DNA of 61,904 nucleotides from Dehalococcoidia bacterium (lineage in GTDB: Bacteria > Chloroflexota > Dehalococcoidia > DSTF01 > JACRBR01): positions 1-61,904 of the forward strand of contig JBBDXD010000027.1 of assembly GCA_040902535.1 (NCBI GenBank), in the 5' to 3' direction. The first letter of the stretch is position 1, and every line of letters starts with the position of its first letter. Below, in pieces: positions 4,689 to 59,879 of this stretch. The translations under genes were made by a program, and so were the position numbers. The notes beneath the pieces were generated by a model, which worked only from the letters and a program-made list of their open reading frames with translations, had not been told where the DNA came from and did no database searches.

Positions 4689-5501
4689 ATGATTGAAGCG
4701 CGCCGGCATGTTGAATCTGCACACGGGAGTGAAGCCATCGAAGAGCATCGTCTGCGCGACCTGCTGACGTCGGTCGCCGAGGGCCGTCTGGCCATCGACG
4801 CGGCGGTCGATGAACTGCGCCACCTGCCGTACGAGGACCTCGGCTTCGCGAAGATCGACCATCACCGCGGGCTCCGCGACTGGGTGCCGGAAGTGATCCT
4901 TGGCGAAGGTAAGACGCCGGCGCAGATCGTCGAAATCGCCACGCGTCTGCTCGACCGCGCCGATCGGCTGCTCATCACGCGCATCTCGCCGGAAGCGGCA
5001 CGCGACGTGCTGGCCGCCGTCCCCGATGCGAAGCACCACGAGGCCGCACGGTGCATCACCGTCGAGCGCGCGACGCTGCTCAAGCAGCCCGGCGTGGCCG
5101 TGCTCTGCGCCGGCACCGCCGACCTGCCCGTCGCGGAGGAGGCGGCCGTGACGGCGGAAATCATCGGCAACGACGTGCGCCGCATGTATGACGTGGGCGT
5201 GGCCGGCATCCACCGCCTGCTCGATCAACTCCCCGCCATCCGCGAGGCGCGCGCGCTCGTCGTCGTCGCCGGCATGGAGGGAGCGCTGCCCAGCGTCGTC
5301 GCGGGGCTCGTATCGTCACCCGTCATCGCCGTGCCGACGTCCATCGGCTACGGCGCGAGCTTCAACGGACTGGCGCCGCTCCTCGCCATGCTCAACGCCT
5401 GTGCGGCCGGCGTCTCGGTCGTCAACATCGATAACGGCTTCGGTGCGGGCTACATCGCGGCGTCCATCAACCGTATTGCGGTGGCCGGCCGCCCGGACTG
5501 A
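4689..5501 (+). CDS. larB: LarB-family nickel-pincer cofactor biosynthesis protein
   Basis: The 270-residue product has the LarB layout: an N-terminal helical segment with RLAIDAAVDELRHLPYEDLGFAKIDHHR, a linker VPEVILGEGKTPAQI, and a C-terminal AIR-carboxylase (PurE)-like domain with AGTADLPVAEEA, VVAGMEGALPSVVAGLV and PTSIGYGASFNG. LarB carboxylates and hydrolyses nicotinic acid adenine dinucleotide to start synthesis of the nickel-pincer nucleotide used by lactate racemase-type enzymes. LarC and LarE are not in the window, so it is either unlinked from its pathway or works elsewhere. Start is ATG at 4689, chosen by family length; the PAP2-like gene is divergent. Confidence 0.85.
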   Translation: MIEARRHVESAHGSEAIEEHRLRDLLTSVAEGRLAIDAAVDELRHLPYEDLGFAKIDHHRGLRDWVPEVILGEGKTPAQIVEIATRLLDRADRLLITRISPEAARDVLAAVPDAKHHEAARCITVERATLLKQPGVAVLCAGTADLPVAEEAAVTAEIIGNDVRRMYDVGVAGIHRLLDQLPAIREARALVVVAGMEGALPSVVAGLVSSPVIAVPTSIGYGASFNGLAPLLAMLNACAAGVSVVNIDNGFGAGYIAASINRIAVAGRPD

Positions 5502-5507
5502 CTATCG

Positions 5508-5534
5508 GTCATCGGTCGCCGGACGCCCGGCGAC
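5508..5534. repeat. Short degenerate heptad repeat (locus 3)
   Basis: Four 7-bp units (TATCGGT, CATCGGT, CGCCGGA, CGCCCGG) lie between larB and the GNAT gene. Confidence 0.5.
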
Positions 5535-5541
5535 ACTATCC

Positions 5542-6333
5542 ATGACGACCATCTACAATCCGGCCATGGCGTTCGACCCCGTCGTGTCACTGCGGATCAT
5601 CAACAACGAGCGGCTGCGCAACGCCCAGGGCTGGGCGGAGCACCGCGACCTCGGCGGTGTGCTGGCCATGACATCCGATGCGCCTATCCCGGACCTCAAC
5701 TGCCTCGAAGCGTTCAATACGACGGAGGCTAAACTCGAAGGGCTGCTCGACATCGGCTTCGCACTGCTGCGGGCGTTTGACTGCGATCCCGCGGCGCAGC
5801 TCACGCCGCTCGACCGCCCGAAAAGCGTCGCGAAGCATCTCGAACGGCGTGGTCTCCGCGCCACCGACCGCTGGCACACCATGGTATTCCGCGGCGACGT
5901 TGCGTCGATCCCCGTGAACCCCACCATCGACGTGCGCCGCGTCGAGCCCGACGACGTGCCGCTGTTCGTCAGTCTCCACGCCGGCGGTGAGAAGTGGGTG
6001 CGGCGGCTGTCAATGTCATCGACGCTGGCGGCGATCAACGAACCCGGCAACAGTTTCTACCTGGCATACGTCGAAGGCCAGCCGGTGGCGACTACGCACC
6101 TGTTGGTCGACGGTGCCACGGCCGGCATCTACGCCGTCGGCACGCAGAAAGCGCACCGGCGCCAGGGCATCGCCACGACGCTGCTCGCCGCGGCGCTGCG
6201 CGACGCCCAGGCCGCTGGCTGCGACGTCATCGGCCTGCGTACGCTCGCGGGCAGCGACGCCGAACGCCTCTACCGGCGCCACGGCTTCGAACTCGCGCAC
6301 GAATCGCGGCTCTACGAGACCCCCACAGCGTAG
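5542..6333 (+). CDS. GNAT-family N-acetyltransferase
   Basis: The 263-residue protein carries a C-terminal GNAT domain: acetyl-CoA pyrophosphate loop KAHRRQGIATTLLAAALRDA near residues 206-225, then VIGLRTLAGSDAERLYRRHGFE, the usual GNAT ending. The N-terminal ~120 residues look like a degenerate extra GNAT-like or adaptor half. The substrate cannot be inferred. ATG at 5542 is used; a second ATG eight codons on is possible. Confidence 0.82.
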   Translation: MTTIYNPAMAFDPVVSLRIINNERLRNAQGWAEHRDLGGVLAMTSDAPIPDLNCLEAFNTTEAKLEGLLDIGFALLRAFDCDPAAQLTPLDRPKSVAKHLERRGLRATDRWHTMVFRGDVASIPVNPTIDVRRVEPDDVPLFVSLHAGGEKWVRRLSMSSTLAAINEPGNSFYLAYVEGQPVATTHLLVDGATAGIYAVGTQKAHRRQGIATTLLAAALRDAQAAGCDVIGLRTLAGSDAERLYRRHGFELAHESRLYETPTA

Positions 6334-18942: not shown

Positions 18943-20184
18943 TCAATGAGTGGAAGACATCGTGCGCAGAGCTTTCAGTTGATTGTCGAATACGGTGCGC
19001 AGTTCGGGCGGCATGTTCGGAATGTCGTTCTGTATGGCATCCGCCGAGGATGGCGCGCGCTGCACCATGTCTTGAACGATCTCGTTCGCTCGACGTTTTG
19101 AGAGCCCCCAACTCGATGCCTCGTTCACGAGACGCTCGCCCGCGACATGATCGATTCGCCGAACGTCGTCGATGAACATCGCCATCTCTCTTGTGGTGGT
19201 TGCGTACAGCAGTGTCGAGATCAGGTCATACAATGGTGCGAATCGGAGGACGCCAAGCTCATCATGCATGATCGAAAAGTTCTTTCCGTGGGCGTCCGCA
19301 TTGCCGATGATCACATTGAACGTCACTGCACGTAGCAACCTCTCGAGCGAATCCGTATCGGCAGACGCGCGAAGGATCGCCGCAACCTGGCGCAAGGAAG
19401 GGCCACCATCGGCCTGGTACTTTTTCGTTGGATGGATCCCGAGCGCCTGACAAAAATCCTCCTGATGGATCCGCTCGACGTTGCCATCCGGGTGGACTAC
19501 GCGGTCGTAGCGTTCGACGATCAACACCTCGCGTCCGCCGATGGTCGCAGTCTCGACATTCGCGACCTGCAGTCCCATGCGTTTCGCGACGCGCATGCAG
19601 AACGCCTCGTTTGCGACGGTGGCAGGATAAGCGGCGGTTTCGGGCTTGAATATGTGCGTCGAGGGCGTGCCGTCAACGGGTCTTCCCCACGATCCATCGG
19701 GCATGCGCGTGAGTACGAGTTTCTCCTGCACACCCGCGAGCGACAGACGCACTCGAGCATCCACGCCAAGCGGCGCATCCTTCAGACTTCTGATGCGCTC
19801 CTCTAACTCCCGCTGGCTCATCGGTTCGGCACGGAGCGTTGTCGGTGGCGGAGGTGCTGGCCAATCGACGGGTTGGATTACGAGTGCGCCCGCGCATTCC
19901 CGCCCCAATGCCTCTATGAGCGAGTAGGTATCACTCTCGCGCACATCCAGTTCGGCCGCGATGAGTCGCCGGACGTCGCCTTCGGGTAGTAAGCCGTCGA
20001 GGAACGAACGCACAACCGAATTCGGATAGTGGCTGGGCGTCAACGGTAGTGCCACGGAAAGCAGGGGGGTGCCGGCTTCGTACTTCCGAAGTGCCTCGTC
20101 GGTGTAGGTCAGGCGTAGCTGTGTCCGGTGACGTTCAATCATTGCGACCGCGGCGCCGTATAGCCAGACCGCAAGCCCCTGCAT
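18943..20184 (-). CDS. hipA: HipA-type serine/threonine kinase toxin
   Basis: The 413-residue protein is a full-length HipA: N-terminal subdomain with SVALPLTPSHYPNSVVRSFL and LLPEG, the SLAGVQEKL loop holding the autophosphorylated Ser, THIFKPE with the ATP-binding Lys, the catalytic NADAHGKNFS and the metal-binding APLYDLIST. HipA kinases phosphorylate glutamyl-tRNA synthetase or other targets and induce dormancy; HipB neutralises them. The ATG at 20184 overlaps the hipB stop (TGATG). Base composition looks lower in GC than flanking genes. Only 22 bp separate its stop from the left dnaN-tail repeat. Confidence 0.93.
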   Translation of the reverse strand: MQGLAVWLYGAAVAMIERHRTQLRLTYTDEALRKYEAGTPLLSVALPLTPSHYPNSVVRSFLDGLLPEGDVRRLIAAELDVRESDTYSLIEALGRECAGALVIQPVDWPAPPPPTTLRAEPMSQRELEERIRSLKDAPLGVDARVRLSLAGVQEKLVLTRMPDGSWGRPVDGTPSTHIFKPETAAYPATVANEAFCMRVAKRMGLQVANVETATIGGREVLIVERYDRVVHPDGNVERIHQEDFCQALGIHPTKKYQADGGPSLRQVAAILRASADTDSLERLLRAVTFNVIIGNADAHGKNFSIMHDELGVLRFAPLYDLISTLLYATTTREMAMFIDDVRRIDHVAGERLVNEASSWGLSKRRANEIVQDMVQRAPSSADAIQNDIPNMPPELRTVFDNQLKALRTMSSTH

Positions 20185-20414
20185 CACCAATCTGCCTTCT
20201 GCAATGTGATCCGGATCCCTAGATGCCTCAGTATCTCCAGCAGCCGGCGGACCTGCTCCGTCTCCTTACCCTGTTCCAGTTCCGAGAGGTAGTACCGGCT
20301 TACGCCGGAGAGCTCGGCTAGCTGGCTCTGCGTGAGACCAGCTTGCTTACGAAAGTGCCGTATGCCCGAGCCCAGTGATTGGGCGCTGTAGATTCGATAG
20401 GGATGGTCGCTCAC
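20184..20414 (-). CDS. hipB: HipB-type XRE-family antitoxin/repressor
   Basis: This 76-residue Cro/CI helix-turn-helix protein has IRHFRKQAGLTQSQLAELSGVSRYYLSELEQGKETEQVRRLLEIL, a clean XRE domain. In hipBA modules HipB binds HipA and represses the operon. GTG start at 20414 with AGGAGG eight bases upstream. Three operator-like repeats overlap its promoter, consistent with autoregulation. It is translationally coupled to hipA. Confidence 0.92.
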   Translation of the reverse strand: MSDHPYRIYSAQSLGSGIRHFRKQAGLTQSQLAELSGVSRYYLSELEQGKETEQVRRLLEILRHLGIRITLQKADW

Positions 20415-22515: not shown

Positions 22516-23084
22516 TCGCCAGCTTCGAATTCGGTGAACGCGCGGCTCGGCGTCGGCGCCATCTGCCCCTGGTACTTGCTCCGGAGGCCGGGACTGCCGT
22601 ACGGCCGGTCGACCGGCGTCGACATGCGCAGGAAGCTCAGTTGGCCGATCTTCATGCCGAAGTGCAGCGCGATCGGCATCTTGGCGACATTCGACAACTC
22701 CAGCGTCAGCTTGCCCGTCCATCCCGGGTCGACGAACCCCGCCGTCGCGTGGATCAGCAGGCCAATGCGCCCGAGCGAGCTTTTTCCTTCGACCTGCGCC
22801 AGGATGTCGTCGGGCAGCGTCACCACTTGGAGCGTACTCGCCAGCACGAACTCGCCGGGATGGATGAAAAACGGGCGGTCATCGCCGATCACCACCTCTT
22901 CGGTCAGATCATCCATCTGCTCGCGCACGTCGATGTACGGACGGCTGCTCACCTTGAACACGCGAAACACGCGGTCCAGGTGCACGTCGACGCTGGCAGG
23001 CTGGATGTCCTGCTCGTCGAGCGGCGTGATGACGAGACGCCCGCCGGCGAGTTCTTCCTTGATCGTGCGGTCGCTCAAGACCAT
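22512..23084 (-). CDS. dcd: dCTP deaminase
   Basis: The 190-residue product starts at the ATG at 23084, preceded by GGAGGG. It has the dCTP deaminase core: SSLGRIGLLIHATAGFVDPGWTGKLTLELSN, holding the catalytic Glu region, and IHPGEFVLASTLQVV. The enzyme deaminates dCTP to dUTP, or in bifunctional forms directly to dUMP, feeding thymidylate synthesis. Which of the two is present cannot be decided here. A HAD phosphatase is translationally coupled downstream. Confidence 0.92.
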   Translation of the reverse strand: MVLSDRTIKEELAGGRLVITPLDEQDIQPASVDVHLDRVFRVFKVSSRPYIDVREQMDDLTEEVVIGDDRPFFIHPGEFVLASTLQVVTLPDDILAQVEGKSSLGRIGLLIHATAGFVDPGWTGKLTLELSNVAKMPIALHFGMKIGQLSFLRMSTPVDRPYGSPGLRSKYQGQMAPTPSRAFTEFEAGE

Positions 23085-23252
23085 GCGGCGCTGTCCCTCC
23101 GATCGGCGGATCGTACCGAAGTGAGACTGTTCGAACCACACGCGATACGAGCACCGACTTGGATACCGCGACAATGCTGCGATACCTGCCGGCCGAACGA
23201 CTCACGACCGGCGACCGATCGGCTATCGTGCAACGGCAAGGAGGTGACGGGC

Positions 23253-24058
23253 ATGGGTGAGCGGTACAGGGACCACGTCGTCGTGATCACGGGCGGCGGA
23301 CGAGGCATCGGCCGCGCGACCGCGCTCGAGTTCGCCGCCGAAGGCGCGACCTGCGTGCTCGCCGGGCGGCGCATGGACGTGCTGCACGTCGCGGCCCTGG
23401 AAGTGCGCAAGGCGGGCGGCAAAGCCGAAGTCGTGCGCTGCGACGTCATGCAAGACCAGGACTGCAGCACCTGGCCGGGTGGACCGCCGGAACGCTCGGA
23501 CGTATCGACGTGCTCGTGAACAACGCCGGCGTCGTGGCCGGCGGCCGCCTCGACGAGATCGAGAAGGAAGACATCGGACGCATGGTCGGCGTGAACGTCT
23601 GGGCGCCCCTGCGCCTGACGCAGATCGTCGTGCCGCACATGCGGGCACGGCGCAGCGGCACGATCGTAAACCTGTCGTCGATGGCCGGGCGCATCGGCGT
23701 GCCGTACTACGCCCCGTACAGCGCAGCGAAGTACGCGATGCGCGGGTTCAGCGAGTCACTGCGCCGCGAACTGAGGCCGGACGGCATTCACGTCATGGCC
23801 GTCTACCCCGGCGGCACCGCCACCGACATGATGGAGAACGTCGAGTTTGAGCGCTTCGGCATGGGCGTTGCCACCGCCGAACGGGTCGCGCGCGCCATCC
23901 TCAACGGCGTGCGATGGCGCCTGCCCGAGGTCTTCATCGGCATCAGCGAATCGATCGCCGCGCATCTCAATGACCTGATGCCGTGTGGCATGGACATCGG
24001 CGTGGACCTGTTCCGCGAGCAGTTCCACGACGCCGTGCGCAACCAACGGACGACGTAG
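23253..24058 (+). pseudogene. Short-chain dehydrogenase/reductase, interrupted by a frameshift
   Basis: The N-terminal part (ATG 23253, SD AAGGAGGTGA) carries VVITGGGRGIGRATALEF and runs to RCDVMQDQDC. A +1-type shift near 23460 moves the frame; the continuation LAGWTAGTLGRIDVLVNNAG is intact and runs to 24058 with NLSSMAGRIGVPYYAPYSAAKYA, holding the catalytic Ser, Tyr and Lys. Restoring one base near the GGACTGC sequence gives a complete classical SDR of about 268 residues. Either a recent pseudogene or a sequencing indel; all catalytic residues survive, which favours the latter. Substrate unknown. Confidence 0.75.
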
Positions 24059-30820: not shown

Positions 30821-32116
<1,296 letters not shown>

Positions 32117-32165: not shown

Positions 32166-33988
32166 TCACAGATTCAGCGAGTCCCGCAATTCGAGAAGAA
32201 ACTCAGACGGGCCATCAAAGCGAGTATTCCCCCAGCGGTCGGTTGTGAACCCTGAGTAGAACATGTGAACCTCGTGCATTGCGCGCGTAAAGCCAACATA
32301 GAACAGTCTGCGCTGCTCACGGCGAACAGCCGGTGTCCGCGCTGACCAACGCGGGATGAGCCCCTGATCCATCCCAACCATGATCACTGCATCGAACTCC
32401 AACCCCTTGCAACTGTGCATGGTAATAAGTCTTAGTTGCGACGGATCGCCCGACTGTGACGCAAACTGCTGAACGGTTGAACCCGCTAGCGCTCCGGCAG
32501 GTGAGTAACTCCCTATGAGACGTTCCCATACCTCGAATTCGTCGGGCCGTACTCCATCCTTATCGAGATGTGCCTCAAGCGCGACTCTCCAAAGGGCGTT
32601 GAGCCAGTCGAGGGCTGGTAGATCAGCTGAACGATGATTCCAGAGAAATTGGGTCAGGTTGGCCTTAGTGTCTGCCGCAATATCCGCTTCGTCGTCTACT
32701 CCTGTGAGTTGCCCCCAAAGCTCAAGGATGTCCCGAATCCGTTGGTTCCCGGTCCTCCATTCACCGCTACACCAGCGTGCGCAATCTTCTACCCACCGGG
32801 TCAAGGGCGTCTTGGGATAAGGGGCATTTCCATCGATGCGAACGTACCTGACATTATGCTCTCGCGCGACGTCTGCAATCACATCACCGACGTTCTTGTC
32901 AACATAGAGCACACCAATATCGCCAACCTGTCGGCCTTCGTGTCGACTCAAGATCTCGGGAATCGCGGCGATGGCACGCTGAGCTTGTTCGGCCAGCCCA
33001 CCGTCTTCGCAGAATACGAAGTCGATGACTGCATCTTCCTCGTCAGCTGCAATGTAGCCGCGATCCTCTTGTAGGATGATCTCGGCGGCATCGATTATTC
33101 TTTGACGAGATCTGTAATTGATGCGAAGGGCAATTGTCTCAAAGTCCGTCCGCTCCGCGAGTTCGCGAAGCAGGGTAGGTTGTGCACCAGAGAACGCGTA
33201 AATGGATTGATCCGGGTCTCCGACCGCAATGACCCTCACACCTACGCTTTCGGAAAGGATACGCACCAAGTGGTGAAGCTGCACTCCCAGATCTTGATAC
33301 TCATCGACGAGCAGGACGGGAAACTTCGCAGCGACCGCTTGGGCAACCCACTCCATACTAAGAAGCCGCAGGCCGGCAATTGTCATGTCATCGAAATCGA
33401 TGAACCCTGCCTTGTGGAGTAAGTCGGTGTAGTGGAGTGCTATGTCCGCTATCGGTTCCTTAACATCCTTCGACCAGTTGCGTCACGTCTCCAATTCATG
33501 CGGCGGTAGAGCTCGAAGGCCTCTCGAATCTCGTATACCGGCGTATTCTTTCCGAGAACTCTGTCCGTCGCTTCCTCAAGGCAAGAGTCTCGCTGGGACT
33601 TCGTCGCTACCCGAAATGGATTGGGAAGGTCTGGAGCGCCGATGGATGCGTAAGGGCGCACTATGTGCGAAAGGCAGAACCCGTGAACAGTGCCGACGAA
33701 AACCCTGCGGGACGGGTGAACGCCCAGTTGCGACGATCGCCTGGTAAGCTCGCGCGCGCATTCGCTGTTGTAAGTGATGCAGGCAACGCCCTGAGGAGGG
33801 GCGACATCCTCGTCGAGTACGCGCGCGAGCTTAATAGTCAACGCCTTGGTTTTACCTGTCCCAGGCCCTGCTAGAACTACGCAGTTCCGTGAAGACTCGT
33901 AAAGTTGCCATTGACCAGGGTTGGCTCGAAGATCCTCAGCGGCGGCAAGATACAACCGGTTATCACTGAGGTAGTTGTTGGGTGACAT
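32166..33988 (-). pseudogene. UvrD/Rep-like helicase (GajB-like), split by a frameshift
   Basis: The N-terminal part (33988-33449) has the Walker A VVLAGPGTGKTKAL and VGTVHGFC; the C-terminal part, open from about 33482 to 32166, has LLVDEYQDL, VGDPDQSIYAFSGAQ, LRINYRSRQRIID, TMHSCKGLEFDAV and YVGFTRAMHEV, i.e. all superfamily I helicase motifs. A single missing base between about 33449 and 33485 joins them into a ~605-residue protein. It overlaps the OLD-family gene upstream by 26 bp. That pairing is the two-gene Gabija layout, in which GajB is the helicase. Either an inactivated defence gene or a sequencing error. Confidence 0.8.
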
Positions 33989-35747
33989 GCTCTATAGCCT
34001 CTTTGATGTAAACCGGACAAATCGCGGCGTTCAGCTTTGAAGCGAGGCGTTGCGCAACACGACCCTTCCCAGCGCGCTCGATGGCCGACATGACAGAATC
34101 GAGCGGAACCGACTCGACAGTGCTCGCCCATTGTTTGAACCGCTGCCGTGATGCCGCGGTCTCCGCGAGTTCCTCCAGCGCTTGGCAAATCGGCCCTGCG
34201 GCTCCAGCCGTCCACAGCTCCCGTTCGAGGGTCGAACCGTTCACGAAGACTCCCTTCGATCGGCCCTCCTCAAGCAGCCGGTGATCCCCCTCTGCCTCAT
34301 CGACGTTCCTTCCCAGCACGGTCAGAAGGGCGCGGATCCTTGTCACCGCGCCCGCCGGTTCGTCCTCGCGTGGATCAAGATCCGTAATTACCGAAAAGGG
34401 GATGTCTAACCCCGCCTGCGACAACAGTTTGACGTACGCAGCGAAATGGGTTCCCTCAACGGAACACACTGTGATCCCGAGCTTGTCGAAGTCCGTCCCA
34501 AGGAGCTTGGCGAAGGCTGGAACCAAGAACGCCTCTGCCATCCCTTCAACCAAAATCACTCCGCGGGCAAACACAAGTTCGCTCCGGGTAACGTTCAGAT
34601 AGCGCTCGAGATCACTAACCTCATCGGCATCGAATTCGAGCGTCGCCGATGAGAGTGCAACCGTTTCGACAGGCTCCCCGATCCTCTTCAGGAGCACGAT
34701 CGATCGAACGGGAGAGACGCTCACGACGTGCGGTGAATGAGTCGTGAGGAAGATCAATTGATCGTGCTCTGGTGGCTGGTCTTGCTCAACTCGAGTTCTT
34801 AGGAAATCGCTGTATACAAGCCTTTGCAAGTGAGGGTGGAGGTGTGCTTCAGGCTCTTCGATAGCAAGGAAGACGAAGTTGCGCCTCTGCTGTTCAACCG
34901 TTAGTCGTAGTTCTAACGTCTTCAGCGCAAGGTACAGGAGGTTCGCAGACCCCAAGCTAGCGTCGGAAATCGAGCGCACGCCATTATCGAAGAACAGACG
35001 AAGTGATCGAACCAGTTTGTCTGCGTCCGCCTCAGTGGCGCTAAGTAGAAACTCAAGGCCGTGCCCAGCCCCGACCATCTCCATCAGACGCTCGTTGATT
35101 TCTCGAGCGACGCCCGCAACTTCAGGGATCGCGGCAAGTTGACGGCTTCCCGCTGTAATCGCGCCACTGATGCGCAGGAGCTCGTCCGGCTCGATCGTTG
35201 ACGCGGCCTGTTCCATCAGAGGACGCAACGGAGATGCCCTCCAGCGTTGGAGATCGCTCTCCGCGTCTCGTAGCGCCGGAAGAACGTCGACAGCTAATCG
35301 TCGGCGCGTTTCTAGCGGTATGACGTTGTCGGGCCTATCCCCACCGAAGATGGCCCACTTCAGCTCCACATCACTTCTGATCGCTTCGCCGGTGTCTTGT
35401 GACGCGGTGTAACGGTAAGTGAACCGGGACGTGAAAGGCTCCGTTTCAACCACCGAATCCGCGAGAAGGGATAAGAGACTCGGCCTCGTCTCGAAGTCAC
35501 GAAAGTCTAGAGCCACTTCGATTGCGTGGTCTCGAGCGAGCGGCCGCGGAAGACCGTCCCAAAAGTCATCTAGCCTTAGGTAACGAGCCGAGTCAGGAAG
35601 ACTAGGGTCGAGCACCAGCCGTATGGCATGGATTAGGTTCGACTTACCGACCTTATTCTCCCCAACGAACACGCTGTCGCCGCCGAGGGCGACGTCTAGC
35701 ATTCGAAAGTTCCTAAAATTCCTAATCTGTAGGCGCGAAACAAACAC
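33963..35747 (-). CDS. OLD-family ATPase/TOPRIM nuclease (GajA-like)
   Basis: The 594-residue protein has an N-terminal ABC-type ATPase with Walker A FVGENKVGKSNL, signature-like region near the middle, Walker B AIEEPEAHLHPHLQRL and LTTHSPHV, then a TOPRIM domain with VILVEGMAEAFLVPAFAKLL and the DxD VITDLDPRED. This is the overlapping-lysogenisation-defect layout. Length and the adjacent helicase gene fit GajA of Gabija, a nicking endonuclease held in check by nucleotides and released in phage infection. GTG start at 35747 after AGAGGG. GC looks lower than in flanking hemL and MFS genes. Confidence 0.87.
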   Translation of the reverse strand: MFVSRLQIRNFRNFRMLDVALGGDSVFVGENKVGKSNLIHAIRLVLDPSLPDSARYLRLDDFWDGLPRPLARDHAIEVALDFRDFETRPSLLSLLADSVVETEPFTSRFTYRYTASQDTGEAIRSDVELKWAIFGGDRPDNVIPLETRRRLAVDVLPALRDAESDLQRWRASPLRPLMEQAASTIEPDELLRISGAITAGSRQLAAIPEVAGVAREINERLMEMVGAGHGLEFLLSATEADADKLVRSLRLFFDNGVRSISDASLGSANLLYLALKTLELRLTVEQQRRNFVFLAIEEPEAHLHPHLQRLVYSDFLRTRVEQDQPPEHDQLIFLTTHSPHVVSVSPVRSIVLLKRIGEPVETVALSSATLEFDADEVSDLERYLNVTRSELVFARGVILVEGMAEAFLVPAFAKLLGTDFDKLGITVCSVEGTHFAAYVKLLSQAGLDIPFSVITDLDPREDEPAGAVTRIRALLTVLGRNVDEAEGDHRLLEEGRSKGVFVNGSTLERELWTAGAAGPICQALEELAETAASRQRFKQWASTVESVPLDSVMSAIERAGKGRVAQRLASKLNAAICPVYIKEAIEHVTQQLPQ

Positions 35748-35782: not shown

Positions 35783-37027
35783 TCAGGAAGGGCTGGGTTC
35801 ATGTTCAACCGGCTCCGCCGTCATCTCCTCCCCCACCTCCGCCGGCTCCCGCACTGTCAGCCACACCAACCCCGCCACCAGCACCAGCATCATGCCGATG
35901 ATCGGGAACGGCGCGTGGATGCCGAGCTGACGCGCCGTGATGCCGCCGAGCAGCGGCGCGATCGCGAAACTCAACGCCTGCGCGCTGCCGACGAGCCCGA
36001 ACGCCGAGCCGTGCTTGCCCGCCGGCGCGCTGGCGCCGATCAGCGCGTTCACCGTCGGCACCATGGCGCCGCTGAACACGCCGACGAGCGCCATCAGCAC
36101 CATCAGCGGCAGCAGGCTCTCCGCGATCGCCACGGGAATGTACGCCAGCCCCGCGCACAGCGTCGCCAGTACCAGCACGTTGCGATAGCCCGCGCGCGAC
36201 GTCAGCCGCGATGCGAAGAGCGCGGCGACGGCGCTCGTGACCGCGAGCGCTGCGAACACGAGCCCCGCCTGCGCCGCGGCCGAGTCTTCGTTCGTGAAGC
36301 TGCCGACGACCAGCGGAATGATCGGCCGCACGAACACCGATGCGGTGCTCACCAGGAACATCACGCTGATCAGCAGCAACATCGCCGGCGTGCGCATGAC
36401 GCTGCGCAGGTTCTCGACGTAGCCCGGCCGCTCGACATTCGGGTCCGGGCGCTTGAAGTCTTCCTTCACGAAGAAGAACACCAGCGCGAACGAGACGATG
36501 TACATCAGCCCGCCGACGGCGAACGTCAACCGGAAGCCGAACTGGTCGGCCATCGCGCCCCCGATCACCGGCCCCACCGTCTGCGATGTGAAGATGCCCA
36601 TCTGCAGCAGCCCCAGCGCGTACGCCATGCGTCGCGCCGGCGTCCCCGCCGCGACGAGCGCCGTCGCCGCCGGGATCGTGCCGACGAACGCACCCTGCAG
36701 CGCACGCAGCGCCACGAGCTGCCACACGTTCTGCACCAACGCCTGCAACGTCACCGTCACCATCGCCCCAGCGTGCGCGCGCAGCAGCATCATCTTGCGT
36801 CCGAAGCGGTCGCTGAGCGATCCCCACAGCGGCGACGACACGAACAGCATCACCCCGGTCGCCGTGTTGGCAATACCCGCCCAGAGCGCCGCATCGCCGT
36901 CGTCTTCGATGCCGATCTCCATGATGAAGAACGGGATGAACGGAAACACCAGATTGGCACCGGCGAGCGCGAGAAACTGCGCGGCCCAGACCGCGTACAG
37001 ATTGCGCTCCCACGGCTCGAGCTTCAC
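35783..37027 (-). CDS. Major facilitator superfamily transporter
   Basis: The 414-residue protein has twelve predicted membrane segments and the MFS loop motif GSLSDRFGRKMMLLRAHAG between helices 2 and 3, with a related GLVGSAQALSFAIAPLLGG in the second half. The shape is that of drug/metabolite:H+ antiporters (DHA1). Substrate unknown. GTG start at 37027. It ends 36 bp from the Gabija-like locus. Confidence 0.88.
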   Translation of the reverse strand: MKLEPWERNLYAVWAAQFLALAGANLVFPFIPFFIMEIGIEDDGDAALWAGIANTATGVMLFVSSPLWGSLSDRFGRKMMLLRAHAGAMVTVTLQALVQNVWQLVALRALQGAFVGTIPAATALVAAGTPARRMAYALGLLQMGIFTSQTVGPVIGGAMADQFGFRLTFAVGGLMYIVSFALVFFFVKEDFKRPDPNVERPGYVENLRSVMRTPAMLLLISVMFLVSTASVFVRPIIPLVVGSFTNEDSAAAQAGLVFAALAVTSAVAALFASRLTSRAGYRNVLVLATLCAGLAYIPVAIAESLLPLMVLMALVGVFSGAMVPTVNALIGASAPAGKHGSAFGLVGSAQALSFAIAPLLGGITARQLGIHAPFPIIGMMLVLVAGLVWLTVREPAEVGEEMTAEPVEHEPSPS

Positions 37028-37244: not shown

Positions 37245-37436
37245 CTAGGCGGCGATCGAGCGCTCCGCCTTCTTCTGCGCCGGCTCCCCGAACACGCGCG
37301 CCCGGATGCGGCTCACGGCCTCGGCGGTCGGCGCCTCCTTCGAGCGGGCGCGGGCCGGTGCCAGCGTGCGGCTGAGCCATCGCGCGGTCGAGGCCGCTTC
37401 GATGCTGTGGACGGTGGCGGGCTTCTCGTCAGTCAT
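37245..37436 (-). CDS. Small basic protein of unknown function
   Basis: A 63-residue, Ala/Arg-rich, helical protein (ARWLSRTLAPARARSK, EAVSRIRARVFGEP, AERSIAA). I favour the ATG at 37436, although a start at 37451 (MKVEAMTDEK) is possible. A strong terminator directly downstream supports it as a real transcription unit. No family recognised. Confidence 0.55.
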   Translation of the reverse strand: MTDEKPATVHSIEAASTARWLSRTLAPARARSKEAPTAEAVSRIRARVFGEPAQKKAERSIAA

Positions 37437-43469: not shown

Positions 43470-44669
43470 ATGACCACCACCATCACCGACGACACGTTGC
43501 CGCGCGCGCGGGCGTCCGTGCAGGCGCTGATTGCCGACGCCATCGCGTTGCGGCGCGACCTACACCAGCACGCCGAGCTTTCGACGCAGGAGCACCGCAC
43601 GCAAGCCGTTATTCTCGAACGCCTCACGTCGATCGGCGCCGATGACGTGCGCGATGTCGCCGACACGGGCGCAACCGCGATCGTGCGCGGCGCCCTGCCG
43701 GGGCCGAACCTGCTCTGGCGCGCCGACATCGACGCGCTGCCGCTCCTGGAGTCGACAGGACTGCCGTTCGCCTCGACGAATGGCGCCACGCACGCCTGCG
43801 GCCACGACGGCCACACTGCGATCGCGCTGACGCTCGCCGCGGTGCTGCAGGCGTCGCGCGATCGCCTCGCGGGCAGCGTGCGCTTCGCGTTCCAGCCGGC
43901 CGAAGAGCACGTCGGCGGCGCAAAACGCATGGTCGATGCCGGCGTCATGGACGACCCGAAAGTCGACCGCACGTTCGGGCTGCACATCTGGTCGAGCAGC
44001 CCGCTCGGGCACGTGCTCGTCACGCCGGGGCCGATCTTCGCGGCCGCGACGCACTTTCGCATCATCGTGCGGGGGCGGGGCGGCCACGCCGCGGCGCCGC
44101 AGGAGACGATCGACCCGATCCTCGTGGCCTCGCACGTCGTGGTCGCGCTGCAAAGCGTCGTCAGCAGGTCCGTCGATCCCGCCGCGACCGCCGTCGTTAC
44201 GGTCGGGCGGTTCGAGGCCGGCGTCCGCGGCAACATCATCCCGAACGAAGTGATGATGTCGGGCACGGTGCGTACGTACGAGAAGCCGGTGCTCGACCGC
44301 ATCCTCCAGCGCATGGATGAGATCGTCCGCGGCGTCACCTCGGCGTGGGGCGCGGAATACCAATTCGACCATTCGACGCTGCCCGCATGCACAAATGATC
44401 CCGATACGGCGGCCATGGTCGCCGGCGTCGCGGCGCGGTTCCTGGCGCCGGAGCACGTGGGCGAAACGCGCGTCACCGGCGCCGACGACATGTCGTATTT
44501 CCTCGACCGCGCGCCCGGCGTGTACTTCCTGCTCGGCGCCTCGCCGCGGCATGTCAAGCGCGTCGAGGCGCATCATCACCCCGGCTTCGACTTCGACGAG
44601 GCATGCATGCCCATCGGCGTCGAGCTGGCGCTCCGCATCATCGAAGAAGCCACCGGATCGACGCTCTGA
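43470..44669 (+). CDS. M20-family amidohydrolase/peptidase
   Basis: The 399-residue enzyme has RRDLHQHAELSTQEHRT, WRADIDALPLLE, the metal-binding HACGHDGHTA and QPAEEHVGGAKRMVDAG with the catalytic Glu, and a dimerisation insert with RGRGGHAAAPQETIDPI. This is the hippurate hydrolase/N-acyl-amino acid amidohydrolase type with two metals. It removes acyl groups from amino acids or related amides. Its stop overlaps the ATG of the next gene (ATGA), giving a three-gene operon. Confidence 0.93.
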   Translation: MTTTITDDTLPRARASVQALIADAIALRRDLHQHAELSTQEHRTQAVILERLTSIGADDVRDVADTGATAIVRGALPGPNLLWRADIDALPLLESTGLPFASTNGATHACGHDGHTAIALTLAAVLQASRDRLAGSVRFAFQPAEEHVGGAKRMVDAGVMDDPKVDRTFGLHIWSSSPLGHVLVTPGPIFAAATHFRIIVRGRGGHAAAPQETIDPILVASHVVVALQSVVSRSVDPAATAVVTVGRFEAGVRGNIIPNEVMMSGTVRTYEKPVLDRILQRMDEIVRGVTSAWGAEYQFDHSTLPACTNDPDTAAMVAGVAARFLAPEHVGETRVTGADDMSYFLDRAPGVYFLLGASPRHVKRVEAHHHPGFDFDEACMPIGVELALRIIEEATGSTL

Positions 44670-45772
44670 TGACGACCGCGCGCACCGGCAAGCCCATCGT
44701 CATCGCCGACTACGACCCGCAATGGCCGCAGATCTTTCGCGACGAACGCCAACTGATCTTCGACACGGTCGGCGATGGGCTGTTCGAACGCATCGAGCAT
44801 GTGGGCAGCACGGCCGTGCCGGGCCTCGCCGCGAAGCCGATCGTCGACATGATGCCCGGCGTGCGCTCCCTTGCGGACGTGACGCCCGACGTCATCGCGC
44901 GGTTCGCGAGCATCGGCTACGAGTACGTGCCCGAGTACGAGCAGCCGAACGACGTCGACGAGGGGGCGCCGGAGCGTCGCTACTTCCGCAAAGACCGCGA
45001 TGGCGCGCGGGCGTTGCACGTGCACCTCGTCGAAAAGGGGAGCGAGTGGTGGGTGAAGCACCTCCGCTTCCGCAACTATCTGCGCTACTTCCCCGAGGAT
45101 CGCGATGCATACGCGGACCTCAAGCGCGCCATCGCGGCGGACTACAACGCGAAGATGGGCGCAAGCTGGGGTTCGACGGAACTCAACATTTACTACACGG
45201 ACAACAAGACCGACTTTGTCGAAGGCGCCCTCGCGAAGTTCGCCGCCCAGATCGATGCGCACGCAAGGATCGTCGTCGCACCGTACGACGAGCGTTGGCC
45301 CCGGTTTTCGGCGGCAGAGCGTGCGCGGCTGGCGGCGGCGCTGGGTCCGCACGCGCTGGCGATCGAGCACGTGGGTAGCACCTCGGTGCCAGGGCTGGCC
45401 GCCAAGCCCACGATCGACACATGCGTCGGGGTGGCCGACATGCCTGTGCTCGACGAGTTCCGGCCGATCATGATCGCTCTCGGATACAAGGGCCTGCGAC
45501 TGAACGAGCATGACTGGGGATACGCGCCCCTCCGCACGCAGGAGATGAACTACAACACGCACTTCGTGCCGTACGGTGGCGAGCGCTGGAAGTATTACCT
45601 GGACTTCCGCGACTACCTGCGCGCGCACTCCGACGTGGCAGAGGCGTACGCCGCGCTGAAGCTCGCGAACGCCCAGGAGTTCGACCGCGACATCCTGGGC
45701 TACATCGAGGCGAAGGCGGAGTTCGTCGTCGATATGCGCACCCGCAGCGCCGCATGGCGCGCCGGTGGATGA
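44669..45772 (+). CDS. Tandem GrpB-domain protein
   Basis: The 367-residue protein carries two GrpB (UPF0157) domains in one chain. The first has VIADYDPQWPQIFRDE and IEHVGSTAVPGLAAKPIVDM; the second VVAPYDERWPRFSAAE and IEHVGSTSVPGLAAKPTIDT. The GSTAVPGLAAKPxxD motif is the nucleotidyltransferase-fold signature of GrpB. Most GrpB proteins have a single domain of about 180 residues, so this is an internal duplication. Function of the family is not established. It is coupled at both ends by ATGA overlaps. Confidence 0.85.
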   Translation: MTTARTGKPIVIADYDPQWPQIFRDERQLIFDTVGDGLFERIEHVGSTAVPGLAAKPIVDMMPGVRSLADVTPDVIARFASIGYEYVPEYEQPNDVDEGAPERRYFRKDRDGARALHVHLVEKGSEWWVKHLRFRNYLRYFPEDRDAYADLKRAIAADYNAKMGASWGSTELNIYYTDNKTDFVEGALAKFAAQIDAHARIVVAPYDERWPRFSAAERARLAAALGPHALAIEHVGSTSVPGLAAKPTIDTCVGVADMPVLDEFRPIMIALGYKGLRLNEHDWGYAPLRTQEMNYNTHFVPYGGERWKYYLDFRDYLRAHSDVAEAYAALKLANAQEFDRDILGYIEAKAEFVVDMRTRSAAWRAGG

Positions 45773-58671: not shown

Positions 58672-59178
58672 TCAGGATCCAACCAGAAAGGGATTGGGGC
58701 GCAGCCTTTCACGCTCGTAGAGTTCCTTGGCGGTAATGCCTTCTCGCACCGCAACTTTCTCGACGCCTTCATTCCAAGGGTTGAGCGGCGATTTCGACGG
58801 AGACCGACGAATAATCCACAGCTGCGCCTTCCGTGGAACGAGCTGTCTGCTGATGTATGGCAGATGAATCATGAGAAGCCCGGTTGCTACTAGCGGATCG
58901 TTGTCCACGTCCTCGAAGACAATCATCGAAAGCCGCGACTGACATAGGACGACCATTTCCTTAGCAAGGTTGAGCATCCTAGAGTCGAGCGTGATGAATG
59001 CATCTACCCCGCCTCGCAACCGCAGTTCTCGCAGCACTTCCCAGTCGTCGTGATCCTTGACCAGATCAGGGTGTAGGTTCCTGAGTCCGGCGATTCTTAT
59101 ATGGTCAGGCCATGGTAGTAGTGCCATGACGTTCGTAGGGAAGTCGTGATCAAGAACGAACAGCCGCGAATCCGGCAT
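58672..59178 (-). CDS. PIN-like (DUF5615-type) putative toxin
   Basis: The 168-residue protein has acidic positions spaced as in PIN/Mut7-C-type nucleases: LFVLDHDFPTNVM near the N-terminus and GGVDAFITLDSRMLNLAKEM in the middle. The gene lies 5 bp downstream of a DUF433-type gene, the usual antitoxin partner. Likely an RNase toxin. GC is clearly lower than in the neighbours, suggesting transfer. Family placement is by motif and context. Confidence 0.65.
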   Translation of the reverse strand: MPDSRLFVLDHDFPTNVMALLPWPDHIRIAGLRNLHPDLVKDHDDWEVLRELRLRGGVDAFITLDSRMLNLAKEMVVLCQSRLSMIVFEDVDNDPLVATGLLMIHLPYISRQLVPRKAQLWIIRRSPSKSPLNPWNEGVEKVAVREGITAKELYERERLRPNPFLVGS

Positions 59179-59183
59179 TCGCG

Positions 59184-59879
59184 TCAGGCAACCTTGAGGA
59201 GGTTGCGCTTCAACTGCTGTTCCAAATCAATGGCATCAGTCAGGGATGTCGCGGACAAGTCTGGATACATCTCAAGAATCTGCCTGTCGCCGTACCCCTT
59301 GGATGACAGAGCGTCCAGCACACGCGTCTCGATCCGCGTATCCTCAACATGTGGTTCCCCCGCCAACTTACCGGGAACAATCCGGAGGGTAGCTCGAGGT
59401 CGGCGCAAATCAGGTCCGCTAACAAAGCTATCGACAAAGAACTGCTCAAGCGGATCCAGCATTTCTCTGCCGAGGAGTCTCAGTCGATCCGTTGGTGTGA
59501 CTAGTTCAGACCCTTCGCCCGAATGCGTGTACGTCTTTCCAGCCCGATCCACATAGATCGTGACTTCGCCCTTCGAAAGAGCATCTCCCATCCGGGACGA
59601 TGTGGTTTCAATCGCCTTAATCATGCCTTTGACACGGCGCATACTAGTGGCGGATCGATCCTCCGGATCTATTGGATGCCTCAACCAATAGATCGCGCGC
59701 AACGCAACTAGGTCCGACCACGACCAAAGCATGATTCGCTCGGCGGAAACGTTTGGCGTGAGGATATCGTGGCGCGCCCAGAAGTAGACCGTCCTCTTTG
59801 GGACGCCAGCCAGAGAGCTCGCCCGTTCGGCGGTATAGACGCCTCGGAGGAGTTCATTCTCCATCGCGTATGGGAGCAT
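59184..59879 (-). CDS. MerR-like HTH plus DUF433 antitoxin
   Basis: The 231-residue protein has an N-terminal MerR-like helix-turn-helix (YTAERASSLAGVPKRTVYFW) and a C-terminal DUF433 domain (RIVPGKLAGEPHVEDTRIETR, LSSKGYGDRQILEMYPDLS). Most DUF433 antitoxins are about 75 residues; here the domain is fused to a DNA-binding half and a ~100-residue middle region. It would bind its own promoter and the PIN-like partner. ATG at 59879 or 59864. Confidence 0.75.
   Translation of the reverse strand: MLPYAMENELLRGVYTAERASSLAGVPKRTVYFWARHDILTPNVSAERIMLWSWSDLVALRAIYWLRHPIDPEDRSATSMRRVKGMIKAIETTSSRMGDALSKGEVTIYVDRAGKTYTHSGEGSELVTPTDRLRLLGREMLDPLEQFFVDSFVSGPDLRRPRATLRIVPGKLAGEPHVEDTRIETRVLDALSSKGYGDRQILEMYPDLSATSLTDAIDLEQQLKRNLLKVA

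Follow-up and report, generated by a model that had tools for sequence, protein, structure and literature searches.

A probably horizontally acquired Gabija locus with a gajB reading frame broken as assembled in a Dehalococcoidia bacterium

In this study we identify a two-gene locus, within a window comprising the whole 61,904-nucleotide stretch of contig JBBDXD010000027.1 from a Dehalococcoidia bacterium, that is Gabija by descent and that we do not file as an intact system, since the frame of its gajB gene is broken as assembled. The account that we favour, and regard as reasonably probable, is that of a Gabija locus gained by horizontal transfer whose gajB is broken as assembled, such that defence should fail. 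Gabija is a known type of system, and the locus described here adds a pair in a bacterial class in which its subtype is rare.

Results

A first-pass annotation had proposed that an OLD-family ATPase/TOPRIM gene and a UvrD-like gene overlap by 26 bp and that the catalytic motifs of both proteins are in place, and both points hold. The two genes lie on the minus strand. The UvrD-like gene, which falls in the GajB clade, directly follows the nuclease gene and overlaps it by 26 bp (33963-33988), and this arrangement, often with an overlap, is a feature of Gabija. The upstream gene, gajA (33963-35747), encodes a class 2 OLD protein of 594 amino acids with an ABC ATPase and a TOPRIM nuclease, and begins with a GTG at 35747, upstream of which the sequence reads GGAAGAGGG. 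GajA matches the PADLOC model PDLC00070 over its full length (696 bits, E 1e-209, profile positions 1-594 of 596), and Pfam assigns AAA_15 and OLD-like_TOPRIM with scores above gathering. Inspection of the sequence located the Walker/ABC and TOPRIM motifs, and across 13 aligned GajA proteins the catalytic set E401, E405, D456, D458, T506, E508 and K561 is complete (7/7) and invariant; the catalytic and metal-binding residues of the Burkholderia pseudomallei OLD protein are E400, E404, D455, D457, T506, E508 and K562 (PMC6755086). The nearest solved structures by sequence are the class 2 OLD C-terminal regions 6nk8 and 6njv, followed by GajA of Bacillus cereus, and a structure model built with six sequences, whose only usable portion, the TOPRIM and helical part, begins at about residue 390 (the ATPase half is of low confidence, mean pLDDT 52), returned 6nk8 and 6njw as the best structure matches for its C-terminal fold. 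By its PADLOC and structure matches, the nuclease is a member of the class 2 OLD / GajA group. A search of the genome found no further GajA.

The downstream gene, gajB, comprises two pieces. The first (33449-33988, minus strand) runs for 179 amino acids from an ATG preceded by AGAGG and carries helicase motif I (GPGTGKT); about 171 of its residues are native and are followed by out-of-frame residues up to the stop. The second (32166-33482, minus strand; 438 codons stop-to-stop) carries motifs II (DEYQD), III (GDPDQSIY) and VI (FYVGFTRA), and thus the SF1 motifs I, II, III and VI are all present in gajB, but spread over two frames. Both pieces match the profile PDLC00117, the first at 203 bits (E 3e-60, profile positions 2-166) and the second at 474 bits (E 2e-142, profile positions 170-600 of 604), with coverage running continuously from one to the other. 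Pfam assigns UvrD-helicase and UvrD_C with scores above gathering, GajB is the top match of both pieces by a wide margin over Rep, PcrA and UvrD, and the NCBIfam equivalog models for these three helicases score far under their cut-offs. Profile placement of the two genes was run as a test of the earlier proposal of a Gabija-like pair, and the proposal survived it. The rest of the helicase matches in the genome are 29-38% identical, and no close GajB able to replace the broken copy was found there. The word helicase calls for caution when applied to GajB, because the B. cereus protein showed no unwinding in vitro (PMC10681800).

The frame break lies at 33449-33485 (minus strand), the 37 bp between the stop of the first piece and the stop upstream of the second ORF, where the longest homopolymer is of 2 bases. 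From motif I to motif II gajB measures 563 nt, where 188 codons would need one base more; the corresponding stretch in 12 intact related gajB genes is of 186-190 whole codons. Since 563 is not a multiple of three, the net change is of one base, which bears out the one-base frameshift previously assigned to this interval. The two pieces overlap and stand in a -1 relation, and the earliest ATG, GTG or TTG of the second frame is at 33386, about 100 bp into the frame and about 60 bp beyond the first-piece stop. No second lesion was found in gajA or gajB, and the earlier view of the break as either very recent or an artefact stands.

The related pairs used for comparison number 12, of which one is from a genome of the same class (G420), two are from the same phylum, two from named MAGs and seven from a plasmid collection. 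In every one gajA is followed by gajB in one unbroken frame, and a 13th related gajB, incomplete and near a contig end, is in frame over the break site. The genes of relatives that match PDLC00108, a PADLOC GajB model of 445 amino acids, are intact frames of 601-608 amino acids. Many relatives of the pair are carried by plasmids, and on two Rhizobium plasmids (L050 and L053) a Shedu-type nuclease gene lies directly downstream of the related Gabija pair. A related gajB on contig 60 of G012 (L105) is matched no further than profile position 349 and ends close to the start of the contig, which reflects either a cut by the contig end or a break at another place.

The pair is placed, as had been annotated, between hemL (30821-32116) and an MFS gene (35783-37027), and its lower GC content is likewise upheld: GC is 0.55-0.57, below that of the surroundings, and GC3 falls to 0.63 for gajA and to 0.58-0.60 for the two parts of gajB, whereas hemL has 0.905 and the MFS gene 0.918. 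None of the other seven family genomes searched carries this GajA subtype, and one other among the approximately 393 class genomes has it. The MFS gene retains, in relatives, the genes that flank it on one side (a small gene at 37248, a response regulator and a histidine kinase), hemL retains a neighbour on the other, and the Gabija pair sits at a synteny break, that is, at a change of gene order. The low GC3, a subtype missing from the other family genomes searched and a location where synteny breaks together point to horizontal acquisition of the pair. The hemL and MFS blocks lie on different contigs in the relatives, and a clean insertion boundary or empty site was not obtained from them; a search for repeats flanking the pair returned weak, chance-like matches only, and a promoter scan gave nothing above chance.

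Elsewhere in the window, a second low-GC patch (58675-59879, minus strand; GC 0.56-0.60) contains two small genes, one of them with DUF433, and has no PADLOC match. A 415-aa protein encoded at 18946-20190 (minus strand), in DNA of slightly low GC, shows weak matches (43 bits) to the PADLOC candidate-defence family PDC-M03A. At 44603-45769 (plus strand) a GrpB-domain protein is matched by PF04229 in two stretches, and in L098 both halves of this protein match one and the same PF04229 stretch, a pattern that suggests a tandem duplication of the domain.

Frame breaks were surveyed with a codon model in about 447 kb, made up of the window plus 20 further stretches. The survey yielded about 150 frame changes on the same strand, and the majority of these should simply mark gene boundaries. 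A strict filter recovered 3 of 60 simulated deletions and was discarded, and junctions were judged by Pfam matches on both sides; the survey covers part of the approximately 150 junctions, and its count of split genes is not to be read as an error rate. Among the junctions checked with Pfam there were two split genes. In the short-chain dehydrogenase gene of the window (22641-24055, plus strand), adh_short positions 2-65 end the first ORF and positions 80-190 start the second; the window thus contains two frame breaks, this one being in a host-like gene. The other is a pyridine nucleotide-disulphide oxidoreductase (Pyr_redox_2) gene at 4816-5905 (minus strand) of contig 3 of G000 (L076), whose profile positions 35-179 and 180-291 are on different ORFs and which possibly has a further break near its start.

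Discussion

The mechanism considered here is taken from studies of Gabija in B. cereus and P. aeruginosa, and is carried over to the present locus on the basis of conserved residues. In its intact form, the system would assemble as a complex of four GajA with four GajB subunits and recognise vulnerable phage DNA. The TOPRIM domain of GajA would cut through two-metal catalysis, regulated both by the ATPase domain of GajA and by the ATPase of GajB. Gabija of P. aeruginosa acts early, on phage DNA ends (PMC12407980), and phage resistance needs both Gabija genes in B. cereus and P. aeruginosa (PMC10822852, PMC10781630, PMC12407980); GajA alone cuts DNA in vitro (PMC10781630). With gajB net one base short, translation would end soon after motif I, giving a product of about 179 amino acids that would keep motif I and lose motifs II to VI, leaving it without the DExQD box and the 2A part. 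Translation of the second piece from 33386 would give a product without motif I, and neither piece alone should hydrolyse ATP. GajA should still be produced; without GajB, defence should fail. Because both genes are needed in vivo according to the literature, the locus is probably inactive as assembled. We infer both the loss of defence and the recency of the break.

A sequencing or assembly error, with the organism itself carrying an intact and working Gabija pair, is a possibility that we take seriously while holding it to be somewhat less than probable. Apart from the break, the motifs of GajA and of both gajB halves are perfect, no second lesion was found, and the split over two frames recurs in two ordinary genes of the sampled assembly. 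However, none of the three breaks lies in a homopolymer of more than 3 bases, which, if long reads were used, argues against their commonest error, and the few split genes per approximately 447 kb, or about 400 genes, fit a real level of pseudogenes, a few of which are normal among that number of genes. The contigs are moreover long (up to 296 kb), and genome completeness is 96% at a contamination of 0.6%. We lean slightly towards a real mutation.

The overlap of the pieces in a -1 relation, and the observation that PDLC00108 covers the second part of the protein only, would fit programmed ribosomal frameshifting or a GajB that is naturally split into two cooperating pieces. Yet the genes matching that model in relatives are themselves unbroken, a single frame runs through each of the 12 full relatives and is also kept over the site in the 13th, and the second frame holds no start codon before 33386. 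A search around and after the break found no stimulatory RNA structure, folding there being no better than that of shuffles (z 0.36), and no obvious slippery heptamer was seen at the break. A programmed -1 frameshift was rejected, with slippery site, stimulatory structure and conservation in relatives all wanting. Given the 13 relatives that read through, the lack of RNA structure and the late second start codon, we regard a programmed shift or conserved split as very improbable, and we give next to no credence to a gajB made in two reassembling pieces through frameshifting or reinitiation, or to a reversible on-off frame amounting to a silent, recoverable Gabija. It is equally hard to believe that the genes form an OLD-helicase pair with another job, such as DNA repair: OLD proteins act in other systems as well, and the relatives of GajB include Rep/PcrA-type repair helicases, but the best 25 of the 126 PADLOC matches of the nuclease are all GajA models, the gene order and overlap match the class 2 OLD/Gabija arrangement (PMC6755086), and many relatives are on plasmids, two of them adjoining the Shedu-type gene.

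The reading that we prefer, a horizontally gained Gabija locus with a broken gajB, is possibly an example of the decay of a defence system shortly after its acquisition, with the nuclease gene still intact next to its broken partner. A real break would accord with the view of a rapid turnover of defence genes through gain and loss.

In comparison with characterised systems, the locus shares with the type Gabija system of B. cereus VD045 its two genes in the same order, an ABC ATPase plus TOPRIM nuclease with the catalytic glutamates, DxD aspartates and lysine, and the SF1A helicase motifs. GajA of B. cereus VD045 is the nearest characterised full-length protein and is distant from GajA here (58 bits by phmmer), and the mechanism is therefore carried over a long distance; GajB has about 600 amino acids here versus 494 in B. 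cereus VD045. The class 2 OLD proteins of B. pseudomallei and Xanthomonas campestris (6nk8, 6njv), of which the solved part is the nuclease C-terminal region only, are about 40-43% identical to GajA over that region, and GajA has the same predicted C-terminal fold together with the seven catalytic residues of the B. pseudomallei protein. The pairs on plasmid pRCB133 of Rhodobacter capsulatus, in G420, in a Clostridia MAG (L008) and in HGW-Chloroflexi-3 (L009) belong to the same subtype, with GajA proteins 45-48% identical, and have the gene order found here, with a short overlap in the annotated plasmid pairs; in all four gajB is intact, whereas in the locus described here it is broken as assembled.
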